64,000 nt of DNA, taken from NCBI RefSeq assembly GCF_010667575.1, contig NZ_JAABNT010000003.1, positions 124,001 through 188,000 of the forward strand. Direction: 5' to 3'. A program made the position numbers and the translations under genes. Numbering within the stretch: the first letter of the stretch is position 1; every line of letters begins with the position of its first letter. The notes below the pieces were generated by a model. That model saw only the letters and a program-made list of their open reading frames with translations, made no database searches and was not told the origin of the DNA. Source of the stretch: Sulfitobacter sediminilitoris (lineage in GTDB: Bacteria; Pseudomonadota; Alphaproteobacteria; Rhodobacterales; Rhodobacteraceae). Below, one piece after another: positions 23,870 to 29,224 of this stretch.

Positions 23870-25054
23870 ATGTGGCGGCATATTGCCTCGAACGCGGTGA
23901 CTTTTCTGGTTGTGGCGCTGTTCATGCTGGGCGGAGTGATCCTGTGGGGACAGAACCAGTACACCGCTGAGGGGCCGCTGGATCAGGCGATATGTTTACA
24001 GGTCAAGCCCGGCTCAAACATGCGGCGGGTCTCAAGTGATCTGGCGGATCAGGGCGCGGTGAGTTCGGCGACGATCTTTCGGATCGGGGCGGATTACGAG
24101 GACAAGACACAAGCGTTGAAGGCGGGCAGCTTTCTGGTGCAGCCGGGTTCGTCGATGTCCGAGATCGTGGATACGATCACGCGGGGCGGGGCCAGCACAT
24201 GCGGCACCGAAGTTGTGTACCGCATTGGGGTGAACCGGGTGTCGGTACAGGTTCGCGAGTTGGATCCGGCGACAAGTCGTTTTGTTGAACGGGCTGAGTT
24301 CCAGCCGGGCGAAGACGAAACGCCCGCGATTTACGCGGAAAAGAAGCAGCAGGCCGATACGCGGTACCGTATTGCGCTGGCCGAGGGAGTGACCAGCTGG
24401 CAGGTGGTTGAATCGCTGAAAGCGATGGATGTGCTGGAAGGTGATGCGGGCGACGTGCCACCCGAGGGGGCGCTGGCACCGGACAGCTATGAGGTGCGGC
24501 CGGGAGACGACCGGGCGGCAGTGATTGCCCGGATGCGCGAAGCGCAGGAACGTCTGGTTGCCGAGGCGTGGGAAGCGCGTGATCCTGATCTGCCGATCAA
24601 GAGCCCGGAGGATTTGCTGACGCTGGCCTCCATTGTTGAAAAAGAGACCGGAGTGGCTGAAGAGCGCGGGCAGGTGGCCAGCGTTTTCGTGAACCGGTTG
24701 AACCAAGGCATGCGGCTGCAGACGGACCCCACTGTTATTTACGGGATCACCAAGGGTCAGGGTGTGCTGGGTCGCGGCCTTCGGCGGTCAGAGTTGCGGG
24801 CTGAGACACCGTGGAACACCTATGTCATTGCCGGACTGCCGCCCACGCCCATTGCCAATCCGGGGCGTGCAAGCCTGATGGCAGCAGCGCAGCCGGACGA
24901 GACCGATTATATTTTCTTTGTGGCCGATGGTACCGGAGGGCACGCCTTTGCCGTGACCTTGGCGGAGCACAACGAGAACGTCGCGCGCTGGCGACAGATC
25001 GAAGCGGAGCGCGGTGCAGAGGCGGCGGGGAACGCATCAACCGGTGGGAATTGA
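23870..25054 (+). CDS. mltG: endolytic murein transglycosylase MltG
   Basis: A 394-residue inner-membrane enzyme that cuts nascent glycan strands and sets their length. One N-terminal membrane helix (about 7-27), then the YceG domain: VKPGSNMRRVSSDLADQGAV, the catalytic Glu region LASIVEKETGVAEERGQVAS, and the family segment LQTDPTVIYGITKGQG, NTYVIAGLPPTPIANPG. It follows fabF by three bases. It is the last gene before the GTA remnant, which starts about 235 bases downstream. Confidence 0.95.
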   Translation: MWRHIASNAVTFLVVALFMLGGVILWGQNQYTAEGPLDQAICLQVKPGSNMRRVSSDLADQGAVSSATIFRIGADYEDKTQALKAGSFLVQPGSSMSEIVDTITRGGASTCGTEVVYRIGVNRVSVQVRELDPATSRFVERAEFQPGEDETPAIYAEKKQQADTRYRIALAEGVTSWQVVESLKAMDVLEGDAGDVPPEGALAPDSYEVRPGDDRAAVIARMREAQERLVAEAWEARDPDLPIKSPEDLLTLASIVEKETGVAEERGQVASVFVNRLNQGMRLQTDPTVIYGITKGQGVLGRGLRRSELRAETPWNTYVIAGLPPTPIANPGRASLMAAAQPDETDYIFFVADGTGGHAFAVTLAEHNENVARWRQIEAERGAEAAGNASTGGN

Positions 25055-25092: not shown

Positions 25093-25155
25093 GTGTTTAC
25101 CATAAATTCATGAATGATCGCACGGTGTTATAGGGTTTTGTTAACCCTCTTTTTC

Positions 25156-25184
25156 TTGACTTTTCGCACGGTCTGAAGTATACA
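25156..25184 (+). promoter_or_regulatory. near-consensus sigma-70 promoter upstream of the GTA remnant
   Basis: TTGACT at 25156-25161 and TATACA at 25179-25184 with an exact 17-base spacer, in an A+T-rich stretch. Predicted start is near 25190. A terminator-like hairpin follows within 60 bases, before the first GTA gene. Confidence 0.75.
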
Positions 25185-25211
25185 TTTTGACATGCTAGAG
25201 GACGTGGGCGA

Positions 25212-25246
25212 GCGGCTTCGGGAATGATCCCGGATGCCGCTTTTTT
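25212..25246 (+). terminator. early intrinsic terminator/attenuator before GTA g1
   Basis: Stem GCGGC / GCCGC with an inner GGGA / TCCC pairing and loop ATGA, followed by six T (25241-25246). From the promoter at 25156 it would yield an RNA of about 57 bases, or act as an attenuator for the downstream genes. Confidence 0.7.
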
Positions 25247-25288
25247 CATGCCTGGTCGGTCGGGGGACCATACGAAAGGTATGAGTCA

Positions 25289-25633
25289 ATGATGACCGTG
25301 ACCCAAGAGCAAGACACACAACGGGGGCAGGAGATCCTTGATACCCTGAGTGATCAGATCACCGCCCTTAGGCGCGAGATCGAGGACATGATCGAACAAG
25401 CTCAGTCCGGAGAGACGACAACGGAAACCGACGCCAAGAAGGTCGTGCAGAGGCTGCGCGATCTGGTTGGGCAATATGTCAAAGCGGAGATTTATCTCAA
25501 TGAGTGCAAGAGCAAGCAAGCTGGAGTCGCACAAGGGGGATATGCCCTTGATCTGGACAGAGCGCGGGTTGAGATCGGGTGCAAGCTGGATCGCCTCCGC
25601 CGATGCGGCCGTCCAAGAGCAGTTCCTGAATGA
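25289..25633 (+). CDS. putative GTA g1 protein (small terminase-like)
   Basis: A 114-residue helical, charged protein. The N-terminal half is coiled-coil-like ([38 protein letters not shown]), and the C-terminus has GGYALDLDRARVEIGCKLDR followed by a basic end. Its last 92 bases overlap the terminase start in another frame. In Rhodobacterales GTA clusters a short g1 gene lies just before and touching the large terminase g2, and g1 of Rhodobacter capsulatus acts as the small terminase. I assign it by position, size and helical character, not by clear sequence match. AAAGG lies 9 bases before ATG 25289; an ATG at the next codon is equally possible. Confidence 0.6.
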   Translation: MMTVTQEQDTQRGQEILDTLSDQITALRREIEDMIEQAQSGETTTETDAKKVVQRLRDLVGQYVKAEIYLNECKSKQAGVAQGGYALDLDRARVEIGCKLDRLRRCGRPRAVPE

Positions 25634-28016
25634 GTTGGATGAGGGAGAGCTGCTGGCTCTTCCTTACTTATTCGATTTCTGGGCGATGGACCATCAGTTG
25701 CCGCCGGAGGGGTCGTGGCGGACGTGGGTTGTGCTGGGAGGTCGCGGTGCGGGCAAGACACGCGCTGGGGCCGAGTGGGTTCGATCAATGGTTGAAGGCG
25801 CGAAGCCGCTTGATCCGGGAGCCTGCACGCGCGTGGCACTGGTGGGAGAGACGATTGAACAGGTCCGCGAGGTGATGGTGTTCGGTGACAGTGGTGTGCT
25901 GGCGTGCTCTCCGGAGGATCGACGGCCTGTTTGGGAGTCTGGGCGCAAACGTCTGGTCTGGCCGAATGGGTCGATTGCGACCATTCACACCGCGCATGAT
26001 CCTGAGGGGCTTCGGGGGCCCCAGTTTGACGCCGCGTGGGTGGATGAATATGGATGCGCTGCAGTCAACAAGGGAACAAATCAGCCCAACAAGTTCCTCG
26101 ACTGGAAGAGCTCTGAAAGCAGGCTGCCTTATTACTCGACCGGTGCGCGCGATGAGCTGATGCAGTTGCAGTATCTCCGGGCGATGTCCGAGTATTGGAA
26201 CGATCCTGGGCACAATCCTCTTTCACCGGAGTACGATGGTCGGATGCTGGACATGAGCCGTGCGTTCGTCTGGGCCTTTGACACACGGCCTTATCCGTTT
26301 TTTCCCAACAACGTGACCAAGTGGAGTGATGGGGACAACTATACCCGTGGCCATTGGATCAACGGGCGCACAGCGGGGCGGTCGCTTGCATCGGTTGTCG
26401 GCGAGATTTGCAGGCGAGCCGGCTTGGTCAATTTCAGAACTGAAGGGCTTTATGGGTATGTTCGCGGCTATGCTGTAGAACAGGTGACGGACGCGCGCGC
26501 GGCTTTGCAGCCCTTGATGATCCGATATGGATTTGACGCGATTGAGCGTGACGGGGTGCTGCAGTTTCGCATGCGCGATGGGGTCAAAGCAGTGACGCTG
26601 GATCCTGAAAGGCTTGCCGTGACATCAGAGCTTGACGGCACCGCAGAGCAGGTTCGCGAGGCAGATGCCGAAGTGTCTGGGCGTATGAGATTGCGGTTTG
26701 TGCAGGCCGACGCGGACTTTGACGTCATTGCAGAAGAAGCTGTGTTGGCCGATGAGGCAACACATGCGGTGTCGGGCTCAGAGGTTAATATCGCCCTCAC
26801 TCGCGGAGAGGGACGTCAAATTGCCGAGCGGTGGCTGACAGAGGCGCGGGTTGCGCGTGATACTGTGCGACTGGCCTTGCCTCCGTCACAAATCGCGCTG
26901 GGCGCGGGGGATGTTTTTGAATTGCCGGGGGATGCCAACGAAGGCCCGGCCTTATACCGGATCGACCGCGTTGAGCAGTCAGACGTTCAACTGCTCGAAG
27001 GGGTGAGGATTGAGCCGCAGGTCTATGACCTCGCTGATATTTACGATGAAGTAGTTCAGGCAAGACTATTTGTGGCCCCGGTGCCGGTGCTGTCCCACTT
27101 CATGGATTTGCCGCTTTTGCGTGGGGATGAAGTTCCGCATGCGCCACATCTAGCTGCAACAGCGCAACCCTGGCCGGGGCCGGTTGCGGTGTTTCAGTCC
27201 AGTACGGATGCAAACTATGAATTAAGTAAGGTCATTGGCACGCGTTCGACCGTGGGGATAACGCGCACCAGTTTGCCCGCGGCTCGCGCCGGCGTCATCG
27301 ACCGAGGAGATGTTCTTGAGGTTGAGCTGGTCAGTGGCAGCTTGTCGTCTGTCAGTGAAGAGGCACTTCTGAGTGGGGCCAACATGGCTGCAATCGGCGA
27401 CGGCAGTTATGACAAATGGGAGGTGTTCCAGTTTGCCGAAGCGGAACTGGTCGCGCCGCGTACCTATTGGTTGAAGACGCGGTTGCGGGGTCAGGCGGGG
27501 TCAGATGGGTTGATGCCGGGCAGCTGGCCCAGCGGGTCTTCATTCGTCCTGCTGGACGGCACGCCATCGCAGCTTGATTTGAGCCCGAATTTGCGCCGGG
27601 TCGCGCAGAATTTTCGGATAGGACCGGCTCGCCGGGGATATGACGACCCATCGTATCGTCACAGGATAGTGGCGTTTGATGGAAATGGGTTGCGGCCTTA
27701 TGTGCCGTGTCATTTGCGCTTTCGGGAAACGGCTACCGGCGACTATGAATTGGACTGGATCAGGCGAACCCGGATTGATGGTGATGGATGGGAAACGCCA
27801 GAAGTTCCTTTGGGCGAAGAAAGCGAAAGCTACGTTGTGCGCGTGATGCAGAATGGCGCCGTCTTGCGTGAGGAGATGGTGGCGCATCCCTCGTTTCACT
27901 ACTCCGCAGCGATGCAGGCGAGTGATAACCTTGCGAGCCCGTTCGACGTAGCAGTGGCGCAAGTATCAGCAACATATGGGACCGGACCTTTTCAAACTGT
28001 TCGAATTGCTGAGTAG
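25542..28016 (+). CDS. GTA remnant: terminase large-subunit ATPase part fused in frame to the C-terminal half of g15 tail protein
   Basis: One open frame of about 824 residues made of two GTA proteins. Residues 1-169 are the N-terminal part of large terminase g2: LPPEGSWRTWVVLGGRGAGKT holds Walker A (GGRGAGKT, residues 66-73), then RVALVGETIEQVREVMV, LRGPQFDAAWVDE with Walker B. Straight after WVDE (about 26043-26054) the sequence becomes the C-terminal part of g15, the large TIM-barrel-like tail protein: YGCAAVNKGTNQPNKFLDWK, then YYSTGARDELMQLQYLRAMS, FVWAFDTRPYPFFPNN, and on to the usual C-terminus. Missing are the terminase nuclease, portal, protease, capsid and all other tail genes, about a dozen in an intact cluster. 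Reading continues for 655 g15-derived residues without a stop. An alternative start is ATG 25500. It cannot make particles as it stands. Confidence 0.88.
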   Translation: MPLIWTERGLRSGASWIASADAAVQEQFLNELDEGELLALPYLFDFWAMDHQLPPEGSWRTWVVLGGRGAGKTRAGAEWVRSMVEGAKPLDPGACTRVALVGETIEQVREVMVFGDSGVLACSPEDRRPVWESGRKRLVWPNGSIATIHTAHDPEGLRGPQFDAAWVDEYGCAAVNKGTNQPNKFLDWKSSESRLPYYSTGARDELMQLQYLRAMSEYWNDPGHNPLSPEYDGRMLDMSRAFVWAFDTRPYPFFPNNVTKWSDGDNYTRGHWINGRTAGRSLASVVGEICRRAGLVNFRTEGLYGYVRGYAVEQVTDARAALQPLMIRYGFDAIERDGVLQFRMRDGVKAVTLDPERLAVTSELDGTAEQVREADAEVSGRMRLRFVQADADFDVIAEEAVLADEATHAVSGSEVNIALTRGEGRQIAERWLTEARVARDTVRLALPPSQIALGAGDVFELPGDANEGPALYRIDRVEQSDVQLLEGVRIEPQVYDLADIYDEVVQARLFVAPVPVLSHFMDLPLLRGDEVPHAPHLAATAQPWPGPVAVFQSSTDANYELSKVIGTRSTVGITRTSLPAARAGVIDRGDVLEVELVSGSLSSVSEEALLSGANMAAIGDGSYDKWEVFQFAEAELVAPRTYWLKTRLRGQAGSDGLMPGSWPSGSSFVLLDGTPSQLDLSPNLRRVAQNFRIGPARRGYDDPSYRHRIVAFDGNGLRPYVPCHLRFRETATGDYELDWIRRTRIDGDGWETPEVPLGEESESYVVRVMQNGAVLREEMVAHPSFHYSAAMQASDNLASPFDVAVAQVSATYGTGPFQTVRIAE

Positions 28017-28309
28017 TGAGACCGGTCTTTCACAGCGATCTTACTGCTGCCGCAAGAGCATTGTTGTTTGCCCCCCGCAGAGGGAGGGAGGAGCTTTGTC
28101 GGATGATGCTGCGCGAAGCGGAGTGGGCGGATCGATTTACGCAAAGATTGGGTAAAGTGCATCCGGTATGGGGCAATGGAACTTTGTCTGACGCGGCATC
28201 TCGCAGACCCTTGGCGTTTGAGGTGCCACTTGATGATCCAGAGTACTGCGCATGTCTGGCACTTGTCTTGTTGCATCTCAGCCATCGGCCCCGCAGTTTT
28301 CACATGTAA
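28016..28309 (+). CDS. small conserved protein following GTA g15
   Basis: A 97-residue protein read from a GTG that overlaps the g15 stop by one base (TAGTG). Features: RALLFAPRRGREELCRMMLR, a Glu/Asp-rich helix EAEWADRFTQRLGKVHP, WGNGTLSDAA, and a C-terminal LDDPEYCACLALVLLHL. As I recall, similar small genes lie between g15 and cysE in related Rhodobacterales; that and the coupling to g15 support it being real. Function unknown. Confidence 0.65.
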   Translation: MRPVFHSDLTAAARALLFAPRRGREELCRMMLREAEWADRFTQRLGKVHPVWGNGTLSDAASRRPLAFEVPLDDPEYCACLALVLLHLSHRPRSFHM

Positions 28310-28411
28310 GTTTTGCTGACACATCGATAGCAGAAATATGCTGCATCACGGCTTTGCGTTTGGCACAAAGGCCCTAGATAGGCTAGGACGTGCACAGCAA
28401 AGGACGTGGAT

Positions 28412-29224
28412 ATGGCTGAACTTCGCAGAAAAATCGCTACGGTTGATCCGGTTTGGGACCGTATTCAGAGGGAAGCCGAACAGGCTGTGCAGGATGAACC
28501 GCTGATCGGCGGCTTTGTGCATGCCTGTATCCTGCATCACAAATCGATCGAAAAAGCTCTGTCTTATCGGATCGCGGCCAAGCTTGCGTCAAACGAGATG
28601 TCGATGGTCGTCGTGCGGGAGATGGTGGAAGAAGCCTATGCGGACAACCCCTCTTTGGTAGAAGCGGCGCGTGCTGACCTTGTCGCGATTTATGAGCGTG
28701 ATCCGGCCTGCCACAGGTTTCTGCAACCGATCCTCTATTTCAAAGGCTATCAGGCTGTGCAGGCCTACCGTGTGGCGCATCATCTCTGGGTGCATGGGCG
28801 TCAGGATCTGGCTTACTTCGTCCAGATGCGGGTGAGCGAGATTTTTGGCGTCGATATTCATCCCGGAGCTGTCATTGGCAAAGGGATCATGATCGACCAC
28901 GCGCATTCCATCGTCATCGGTGAAACGGCTGTAGTCGGCGATAACGTGTCGATGCTGCATTCGGTTACTCTGGGCGGTACCGGCAAGGAAGAAGAGGATC
29001 GGCATCCCAAAATTGAGGACGGTGTGCTGATCGGTGCGGGCGCCAAGGTGCTGGGTAACATTCGGGTGGGACACTGCAGCCGCATCGCTGCAGGCTCCGT
29101 CGTGTTGGAGGAAGTGCCGCCGTGCAAGACGGTGGCTGGTATTCCGGCGCGCATTGTTGGAGAGGCGGGCTGTGAGCAGCCAGCAATCTCGATGAACCAC
29201 ATGCTTGGGCCTTGGAAAGAATAG
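28412..29224 (+). CDS. cysE: serine O-acetyltransferase
   Basis: CysE, 270 residues, acetylates L-serine with acetyl-CoA to start cysteine synthesis. N-terminal helical domain (DPVWDRIQREAEQAVQDEPL), then the left-handed beta-helix of hexapeptide repeats (FGVDIHPGAVIGKGIMIDHA; GETAVVGDNVSMLHSVTLGG), with catalytic His in DHAHSIVIGE and the GTGKEEEDRHPKI loop. ATG 28412 has AAAGGA 7 bases upstream. It is the classic downstream neighbour of GTA clusters in Rhodobacterales, which anchors the interpretation of the remnant before it. Confidence 0.97.
   Translation: MAELRRKIATVDPVWDRIQREAEQAVQDEPLIGGFVHACILHHKSIEKALSYRIAAKLASNEMSMVVVREMVEEAYADNPSLVEAARADLVAIYERDPACHRFLQPILYFKGYQAVQAYRVAHHLWVHGRQDLAYFVQMRVSEIFGVDIHPGAVIGKGIMIDHAHSIVIGETAVVGDNVSMLHSVTLGGTGKEEEDRHPKIEDGVLIGAGAKVLGNIRVGHCSRIAAGSVVLEEVPPCKTVAGIPARIVGEAGCEQPAISMNHMLGPWKE

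Follow-up and report, generated by a model that had tools for sequence, protein, structure and literature searches.

The question raised by this locus is how the same two codons, which lie 11.4 kb apart and have no DNA sequence in common, came to be joined in unrelated lineages. The codons belong to a gene cluster that normally makes a virus-like particle for DNA exchange, the gene transfer agent (GTA) cluster of Sulfitobacter sediminilitoris, contained in a window of 64,000 nucleotides (the whole stretch analysed; assembly GCF_010667575.1, contig NZ_JAABNT010000003.1, positions 124,001 to 188,000 of the forward strand), in which the first part of the terminase gene g2 and the last part of the megatron gene g15 form one chimeric gene.

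A first-pass annotation of the window had proposed an in-frame g2-g15 chimera with Walker A and Walker B motifs, and both the open reading frame and the Pfam and NCBIfam matches of its two halves bear this out. The gene occupies positions 25467 to 28016 (all features described here are on the forward strand), with an uncertain start codon (TTG at 25467, ATG at 25500 or ATG at 25542). Residues 1 to about 194 correspond to the start of GTA terminase g2 up to Walker B, and the sequence from the Glu codon at 26046 onward corresponds to the C-terminal half of g15. The TerL ATPase motifs are present, with Walker A (GGRGAGKT) at 25737–25760 and Walker B (...AAWVDE) ending at the Glu codon 26046–26048, from which the frame continues without a stop into YGCAAVNKGTNQPNKF. 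This shared Glu codon is the centre of the junction, W-V-D|E|Y-G-C (26037–26057), which in the general form W-x-D|E|x-G-C recurs in the same register in the fused relatives described below.

Pfam matched Terminase_6N at chimera residues 89–195 (profile positions 2–105 of 215) and GTA_TIM at residues 185–280 (profile positions 204–299 of 299), together with the Phage-tail_3 and Rcc01698_C domains. The NCBIfam GTA megatron profile NF048004 was matched over positions 640–1298 of 1299 (3e-233), with 777 bits, below its curated whole-protein cut-off of 800 bits. The ATPase domain is incomplete, Terminase_6N ending at profile position 105 of 215, and the RNase-H-like nuclease domain Terminase_6C was not matched by Pfam in the chimera; g2 of the intact genome G008 has both the complete ATPase domain and Terminase_6C. 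Since only the C-terminal half of g15 is present, the deletion also took approximately the first 640 g15 residues, including two thirds of the TIM domain. Judged by profile position against the excerpted structural description of RcGTA in PMC7296036, the g15 part kept is the end of the peripheral domain plus the central (hub) and fibre-binding domains of the megatron (g15/Rcc01698), and the terminase P-loop half stands in place of the iris domain, the adhesin-like domain and most of the peripheral domain.

The remainder of the cluster was not found elsewhere in the window genome. The terminase family PF03237 is matched solely at the chimeric gene and the megatron profile solely over positions 640–1298, and the genome search found neither the N-terminal half of g15 nor a GTA-type capsid. 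The head-tail set (portal, protease, capsid, tail and hub genes) is neither complete nor nearly so, being absent from the locus in the window. Relocation of the missing genes was rejected for the two parts searched, the g15 N-terminal half and the capsid.

The same junction recurs in other genomes. With a 117-residue query spanning the junction, and with essentially full-length matches counted, it was found in 4 of 62 genomes of the genus Sulfitobacter and, in a family sample of 394 genomes covering 393 genera, in at least 17; this family count is a lower bound, from which fusions with weaker similarity may be missing. Two genomes are common to both sets, which together hold 19 fused genomes of 16 genera. 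Matches in G068 (genus) and G318 (family) begin left of the junction; both have full-length clusters and were not counted. In 19/19 cases the join has the form W-[VLASC]-D-E-[YFLIMT]-G-C at zero offset, with free variation at third codon positions. In a class-wide sample of 385 genomes the junction was found only in the same two members of the genus; among its approximately 380 genomes from outside the family, 101 gave some partial match and none spanned the junction.

In unfused loci that have both points, the distance from the g2 point to the g15 point is 10.8–12.4 kb in 82 of 83 cases (11.1–11.7 kb in 77), typically about 11.4 kb, as expected of the one internal deletion that had been proposed; the single exception, G088, has a different deletion of its own. 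The g15 N-terminal half and the GTA-type capsid were not found in any of the 19 fused genomes, and both were found in the intact controls G008, G067 and G461. Capsid-family proteins at 28–36% identity in fused G154, G228, G422 and G176 are taken as prophage proteins. Several fused loci lie in near-complete assemblies (G014 in one contig of 4.19 Mb, G188 in three contigs, G462 in six), so assembly collapse is not a sufficient explanation and is unlikely as the sole one. A one-off accident would not explain the recurrence of a codon-exact hybrid in scattered relatives of other genera, and the earlier suggestions of a recent private event or of a collapsed assembly do not fit one in-register junction shared by this many genomes.

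The fusion was not found in plasmid records (0 of 16 matching), in phage records (0 of 148), or in seven loci from a scan of named bacterial genomes, and two IMG/VR matches to the junction pattern proved to be unrelated DNA. Literature searches, judged by top-ranking titles, found no paper on a terminase-megatron fusion, and term searches of PMC9836097, PMC7947584, PMC10883770 and PMC6821227 returned no word beginning with 'fus'.

The 19 fused genomes are not one clade. Trees were built from 110 loci in total: a g15-half tree of 108 rows (G007 and Salipiger lack the start of the g15 half), a g2-half tree of 103 rows (G007, G454, G226, G122, G116, G445 and G097 lack the end of the g2 half), and a tree of the flanking genes cysE, mltG, fabF and pdhC that kept 83 of the 110 rows. 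In the g15-half tree, fused genes are placed beside intact genes of their own lineage, with 13 changes between the fused and intact labels, at least 9 of them forced by strongly supported branches; the flank-gene tree likewise has 13 changes, at least 7 of them forced. A single clade of the 19 was rejected on the g15 half (1303 log units worse, approximately unbiased (AU) test p 4.75e-7, on a quick LG+G4 tree). The g2-half tree, from a short alignment, has 16 changes of which strongly supported branches force only 1, and so does not by itself exclude a single origin. On both the g15 and the flank trees, the four Sulfitobacter fusions need four changes, fused G075 and intact G067 are sisters at 100%, and the sister genera G163 and G301 are both fused. 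It is a tentative conclusion, held at somewhat less than even odds, that the GTA locus of the Rhodobacteraceae repeatedly collapses to g1 and one chimeric gene.

The chimera is mostly intact as a coding sequence. It is open in 16 of the 18 loci whose contig spans the whole gene, the broken ones being G014 (frameshift) and G397 (late stop), with G223, which is cut by a contig end, outside the 18; approximately 7 stops would be expected under a neutral model at a divergence of 0.1 substitutions per site. All 19 fused loci retain Walker A and W-x-D-E, and at columns invariant across intact rows the fused forms keep about 98–99% of residues. For fused G075 against intact G067, the ratio of nonsynonymous to synonymous substitution rates (dN/dS, omega) comes to 0.013 over the g2 half and 0.10 over the g15 half, values like those of intact pairs such as G067–G020 (0.05 in the g2 half and 0.07–0.11 in the g15 half). 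A triplet test (12/13 testable) found no fused branch with a clearly raised nonsynonymous share; the borderline cases, both in the g15 half, were G328 (p 0.05) and G075 with G020 and G033 (p 0.10), and in one triplet the nonsynonymous excess lay on the intact branch (G085). On these sequences the chimera looks kept, and the earlier proposal that it is retained for some use gains support from the open frames and, where it is measurable, from the dN/dS.

Four loci collapsed at other points, and all four are broken or split, against 16 open of 18 for the common junction (Fisher p 0.002, or 0.008 when G007, whose g15 fragment is open, is left out); this difference favours the survival of one chimera. 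G088 (L147 11461–15511) joins g2 to g15 at another point and Salipiger marinus (L034 10004–13707) joins portal to g15, both with stops; G080 (L092 5758–6900) joins capsid to g15 at a contig end, also with stops; and in G007 (L045 4287–6868), which joins g12 to g15, g12 and an open g15 fragment are in separate frames. Within Sulfitobacter, for which the list of matches is complete, the common junction accounts for 4 of the 6 collapsed clusters seen, G007 and G080 being the other two, with several genomes too fragmented to judge.

Other observations were made on clusters of this kind. G088 carries, beside its collapsed cluster, a second g15 whose N-terminal half lies in a 1316-codon open frame, with a PF10983 gene nearby (C1:2470343–2472280 and C1:2468010–2468270). 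In G002 (L075) and G018 (L090), g15 has frameshifts or stops in otherwise full-length clusters, and in G031 (L015) g15 has a frameshift or stop on a 4 kb contig; this is, as read from the sequences, GTA decay without deletion in the same genus.

The best reading of these results, to which we assign a probability of roughly 0.4, is that the deletion occurred repeatedly and independently, and that one working chimera survived. Under this reading, rare illegitimate deletions would hit the GTA cluster everywhere, and the loss of particle production would free the cell from the cost of lysis, making it a GTA non-producer. Only a deletion giving a working chimera would survive for long, and other deletions would decay. 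The working chimera would consist of the terminase P-loop half and the hub and fibre-binding part of the megatron, still in the GTA locus, and may exist as a soluble protein that binds ATP and carries the fibre-binding part of the baseplate, for which a role as a decoy or a brake on GTA traffic is a guess.

Several results weigh against this reading. If selection acts on the protein, it is not obvious why the junction is never shifted, even by one residue. AlphaFold2 gave no confident fold across the junction (mean predicted local distance difference test score 56, below 50 for residues 161–221, from a 27-row alignment), so that a hybrid domain is unsupported, including a hybrid fold formed by the swap of the Walker B strand for a TIM strand. 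No residue specific to the fused forms passed Bonferroni correction over 814 columns. Deviation at conserved columns was about twice that of held-out intact forms (1.8 vs 0.9% and 3.2 vs 1.6%), which indicates partly relaxed constraint; by pseudogene criteria, the frame is open in 16 of 18 loci and the deviation is doubled yet under 4%. The YN00 estimates of dN/dS failed for many pairs, and synonymous divergence (dS) was near saturation in most. Many of the fusions could also be very young, in which case their open frames carry little information. Finally, the four other-type collapses, from which the difference in open frames is drawn, were met by chance and not by census.

Alternatively, the fusion may have had one ancient origin in the Rhodobacteraceae, with the fused allele persisting as a producer/non-producer polymorphism or moving between species, and with recombination overwriting its flanks up to the junction. 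GTA particles carry fragments of about 4 kb, and a one-way overwriting of flanks by such particles is possible because the fragments are too short to restore the cluster. An ancient origin would explain both the codon-exact junction and its not being seen outside the family, and would suit the similar frequencies in the genus (4/62) and the family (at least 17/394). Outside Sulfitobacter the fused label is also clustered on the g15 tree (9 changes vs 13.4 after shuffling, 2 of 300 shuffles being as low) but not on the flank tree (10 vs 10.7, 132 of 300 as low), so that some fusions may be shared by descent.

The DNA around the breakpoints argues the other way, as no fused core is shared. Fused G154 and intact G461 have the same 35 bases immediately left of the Glu codon, and the last 9 bases agree between fused G075 and intact G020 and between fused G000 and intact G032; the sister pair G075 and G067 already differs at the last base. 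Mismatch ratios, from 16 fused loci against their nearest intact relative normalised to 70 intact control pairs, were 0.83 and 0.91 to the left and 1.16 and 1.10 to the right within 30 bp of the junction, not clearly raised, and 1.06–1.37 beyond 30 bp, highest at 30–60 bp to the left. The local origin of the DNA near the junction, the unraised mismatch and the lack of fused-specific residues thus give no sign of an imported core, and a shared donor core is unsupported. An ancient origin is unlikely on this evidence, if still a serious candidate.

It is also conceivable that the cluster is excised by a site-specific enzyme that, like homing endonucleases, acts despite synonymous changes, cutting or recombining at W-x-D-E in g2 and W-F-T-E in g15 with exchange at the shared GA. 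Such excision would explain the exactness, the recurrence, the scattered spread and the local flanks without selection, and the first two bases of the Glu codon are indeed GA at the g2 site in 83/83 and at the g15 site in 82/83 unfused loci. Against it stands the lack of a conserved DNA site at the breakpoints, and the two sites are not unusually alike. In 82 intact clusters the breakpoints have on average an exact run of about 3 nt in common, and a median of 1–4% of g2/g15 position pairs are as similar as the breakpoints, the site doing better in single clusters; this similarity test lends no support to a microhomology or repeat hotspot, nor to the special short DNA match first suggested at the breakpoint. 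In the same 82 clusters, synonymous variation at the breakpoints is average or above (94th and 77th percentile), with no reduction in the codon variation of conserved residues at either one, which leaves a conserved att-like site unsupported. Nor was a reciprocal junction of g15 N-terminal and g2 C-terminal halves found in 331 loci, IMG/VR included, apart from two unrelated IMG/VR matches without a GTA gene. Site-specific excision therefore appears rather improbable. The one unfused locus without GA at the g15 site, L081 (G026), has a stop codon exactly at the g15 Glu codon where the fusions join, in an otherwise full-length cluster.

A third possibility is that the losses are neutral and mostly recent, the chimeras being young, functionless leftovers that are open for want of time to decay. 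The tip-scattered distribution, the intact-like dN/dS and the one frameshift and one nonsense mutation among 18 loci are consistent with this. One possible sign of age is PF10983, which we take to be the family of the GTA tail fibre. It was found in 8 of 8 tested intact Sulfitobacter (G008, G067, G032, G085, G073, G022, G010 and G020) and in the collapsed G007, and the retention of an unlinked PF10983 gene in fused G075 and G084 would favour young losses. In eight fused genomes of other genera (G397, G224, G228, G462, G301, G163, G328 and G422) it directly follows the chimera as an open frame. The window genome and G014, both fused, lack it, as do G221 and G176, which are fused too; but the intact relatives of the latter two, G323 and G197, have no PF10983 either (2 of 23 tested intact genomes outside Sulfitobacter), so it is not a clean clock. 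With that reservation about the marker, the window genome lacks PF10983 and yet has an open chimera. Moreover, the chimera is open in both G163 and G301, fused sister genera whose dS is close to saturation, the other-type collapses are broken or split, and the one exact junction would be left unexplained, all of which makes neutral recent loss improbable.

An artefact of assembly or of sequence collection is very improbable. In its favour, it is difficult to see what biology would bring the junction back to a single protein position when the DNA gives no signal, and all fused loci come from one genome collection (none from the named plasmid, phage, bacterial and IMG/VR records). Against it, the 19 genomes are separate assemblies, among them a single-contig one and several of few contigs, their junction residues and codons differ naturally between lineages, their flank genes are in the usual order, and two of the loci show decay (a frameshift and a nonsense mutation).

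The neighbouring genes confirm that this is a GTA cluster beside cysE, as the first-pass annotation had held, in the order mltG, g1-like open reading frame, chimera, DUF7742 and cysE. By conserved synteny, mltG (23870–25054) is the left flank and cysE (28406–29224) the right flank of the locus, as in RcGTA-like loci, and DUF7742 (28016–28309; profile match and synteny) is the usual neighbour after g15. The g1-like frame (25289–25633, 114 residues) is at the position of the GTA small-terminase gene; tblastn detected similar sequence in 11 of the 19 fused loci, the window included, and a stop-to-stop frame of at least 70 codons ends at the g1 position in 19/19, which is weak evidence by itself. 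Pfam and NCBIfam profile searches gave no convincing family match for it. Compared with the RcGTA-type head-tail cluster (g1–g15) of Rhodobacterales, the window thus shares the place between mltG and cysE, the g1 position, the g2 N-terminal half, the g15 C-terminal half, DUF7742 and the leader, and lacks about 11.4 kb holding the C-terminal part of g2, the nuclease, portal, protease, capsid and tail genes, and the g15 N-terminal half. The internal deletion proposed at first therefore stands, with its extent revised: only the C-terminal half of g15 is left, and the g1-like frame is retained.

The leader upstream of g1 is recognisable in 4/4 fused and 13 intact Sulfitobacter. The segment at 25100–25290 of the window, with counterparts in 16 Sulfitobacter relatives, contains TTGAC (G010 excepted), a GCTAG block and a GC-rich inverted repeat with a T run. 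A promoter-like TTGACT-17 nt-TATACA (25156–25184) was read off the leader alignment, with TTGAC at this place in 16 of 17 aligned leaders (4 fused, 13 intact; missing in G010). The inverted repeat followed by T6 (25212–25246; from sequence and leader alignment), similar to repeats in relatives, suggests a terminator upstream of g1, reminiscent of the anti-termination control reported for the Caulobacter GTA in the available portion of PMC11150451. A stricter pattern scan listed neither the promoter-like nor the terminator-like element of the leader.

Decayed or lost GTA clusters have been discussed as cheater lineages, and non-producing cheaters are expected, in the excerpted text of PMC10883770. 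As in those cases, no particle can be made from the fused locus and the loss is scattered across lineages; unlike the pseudogenisation and loss described in that excerpt, what is left here is mostly an open chimera with one recurrent, codon-exact junction. From the sequences we infer a non-producing locus state whose remaining protein would be under selection and possibly acts on GTA traffic.

Selection explains the open frames and not the exactness, and an ancient allele explains the exactness and not the local flanks; a site-specific enzyme would account for exactness and flanks alike, though no site for it is visible. The pattern is thus firm, with several candidate causes. We propose, tentatively and at well short of even odds, that the Rhodobacteraceae have a second stable state of the GTA locus, a codon-exact chimera that is re-formed or kept as a trans-species polymorphism and that would encode a working protein of non-producers, for example to receive or resist GTA particles. 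Why GTA genes persist though producers lyse is an open question, and little is known of the non-producers that are expected to exist. A non-producer form that recurs with the same molecular structure offers a marker for which any genomic or metagenomic data set can be scored, and with it strain frequencies can be used to test the producer/non-producer idea.

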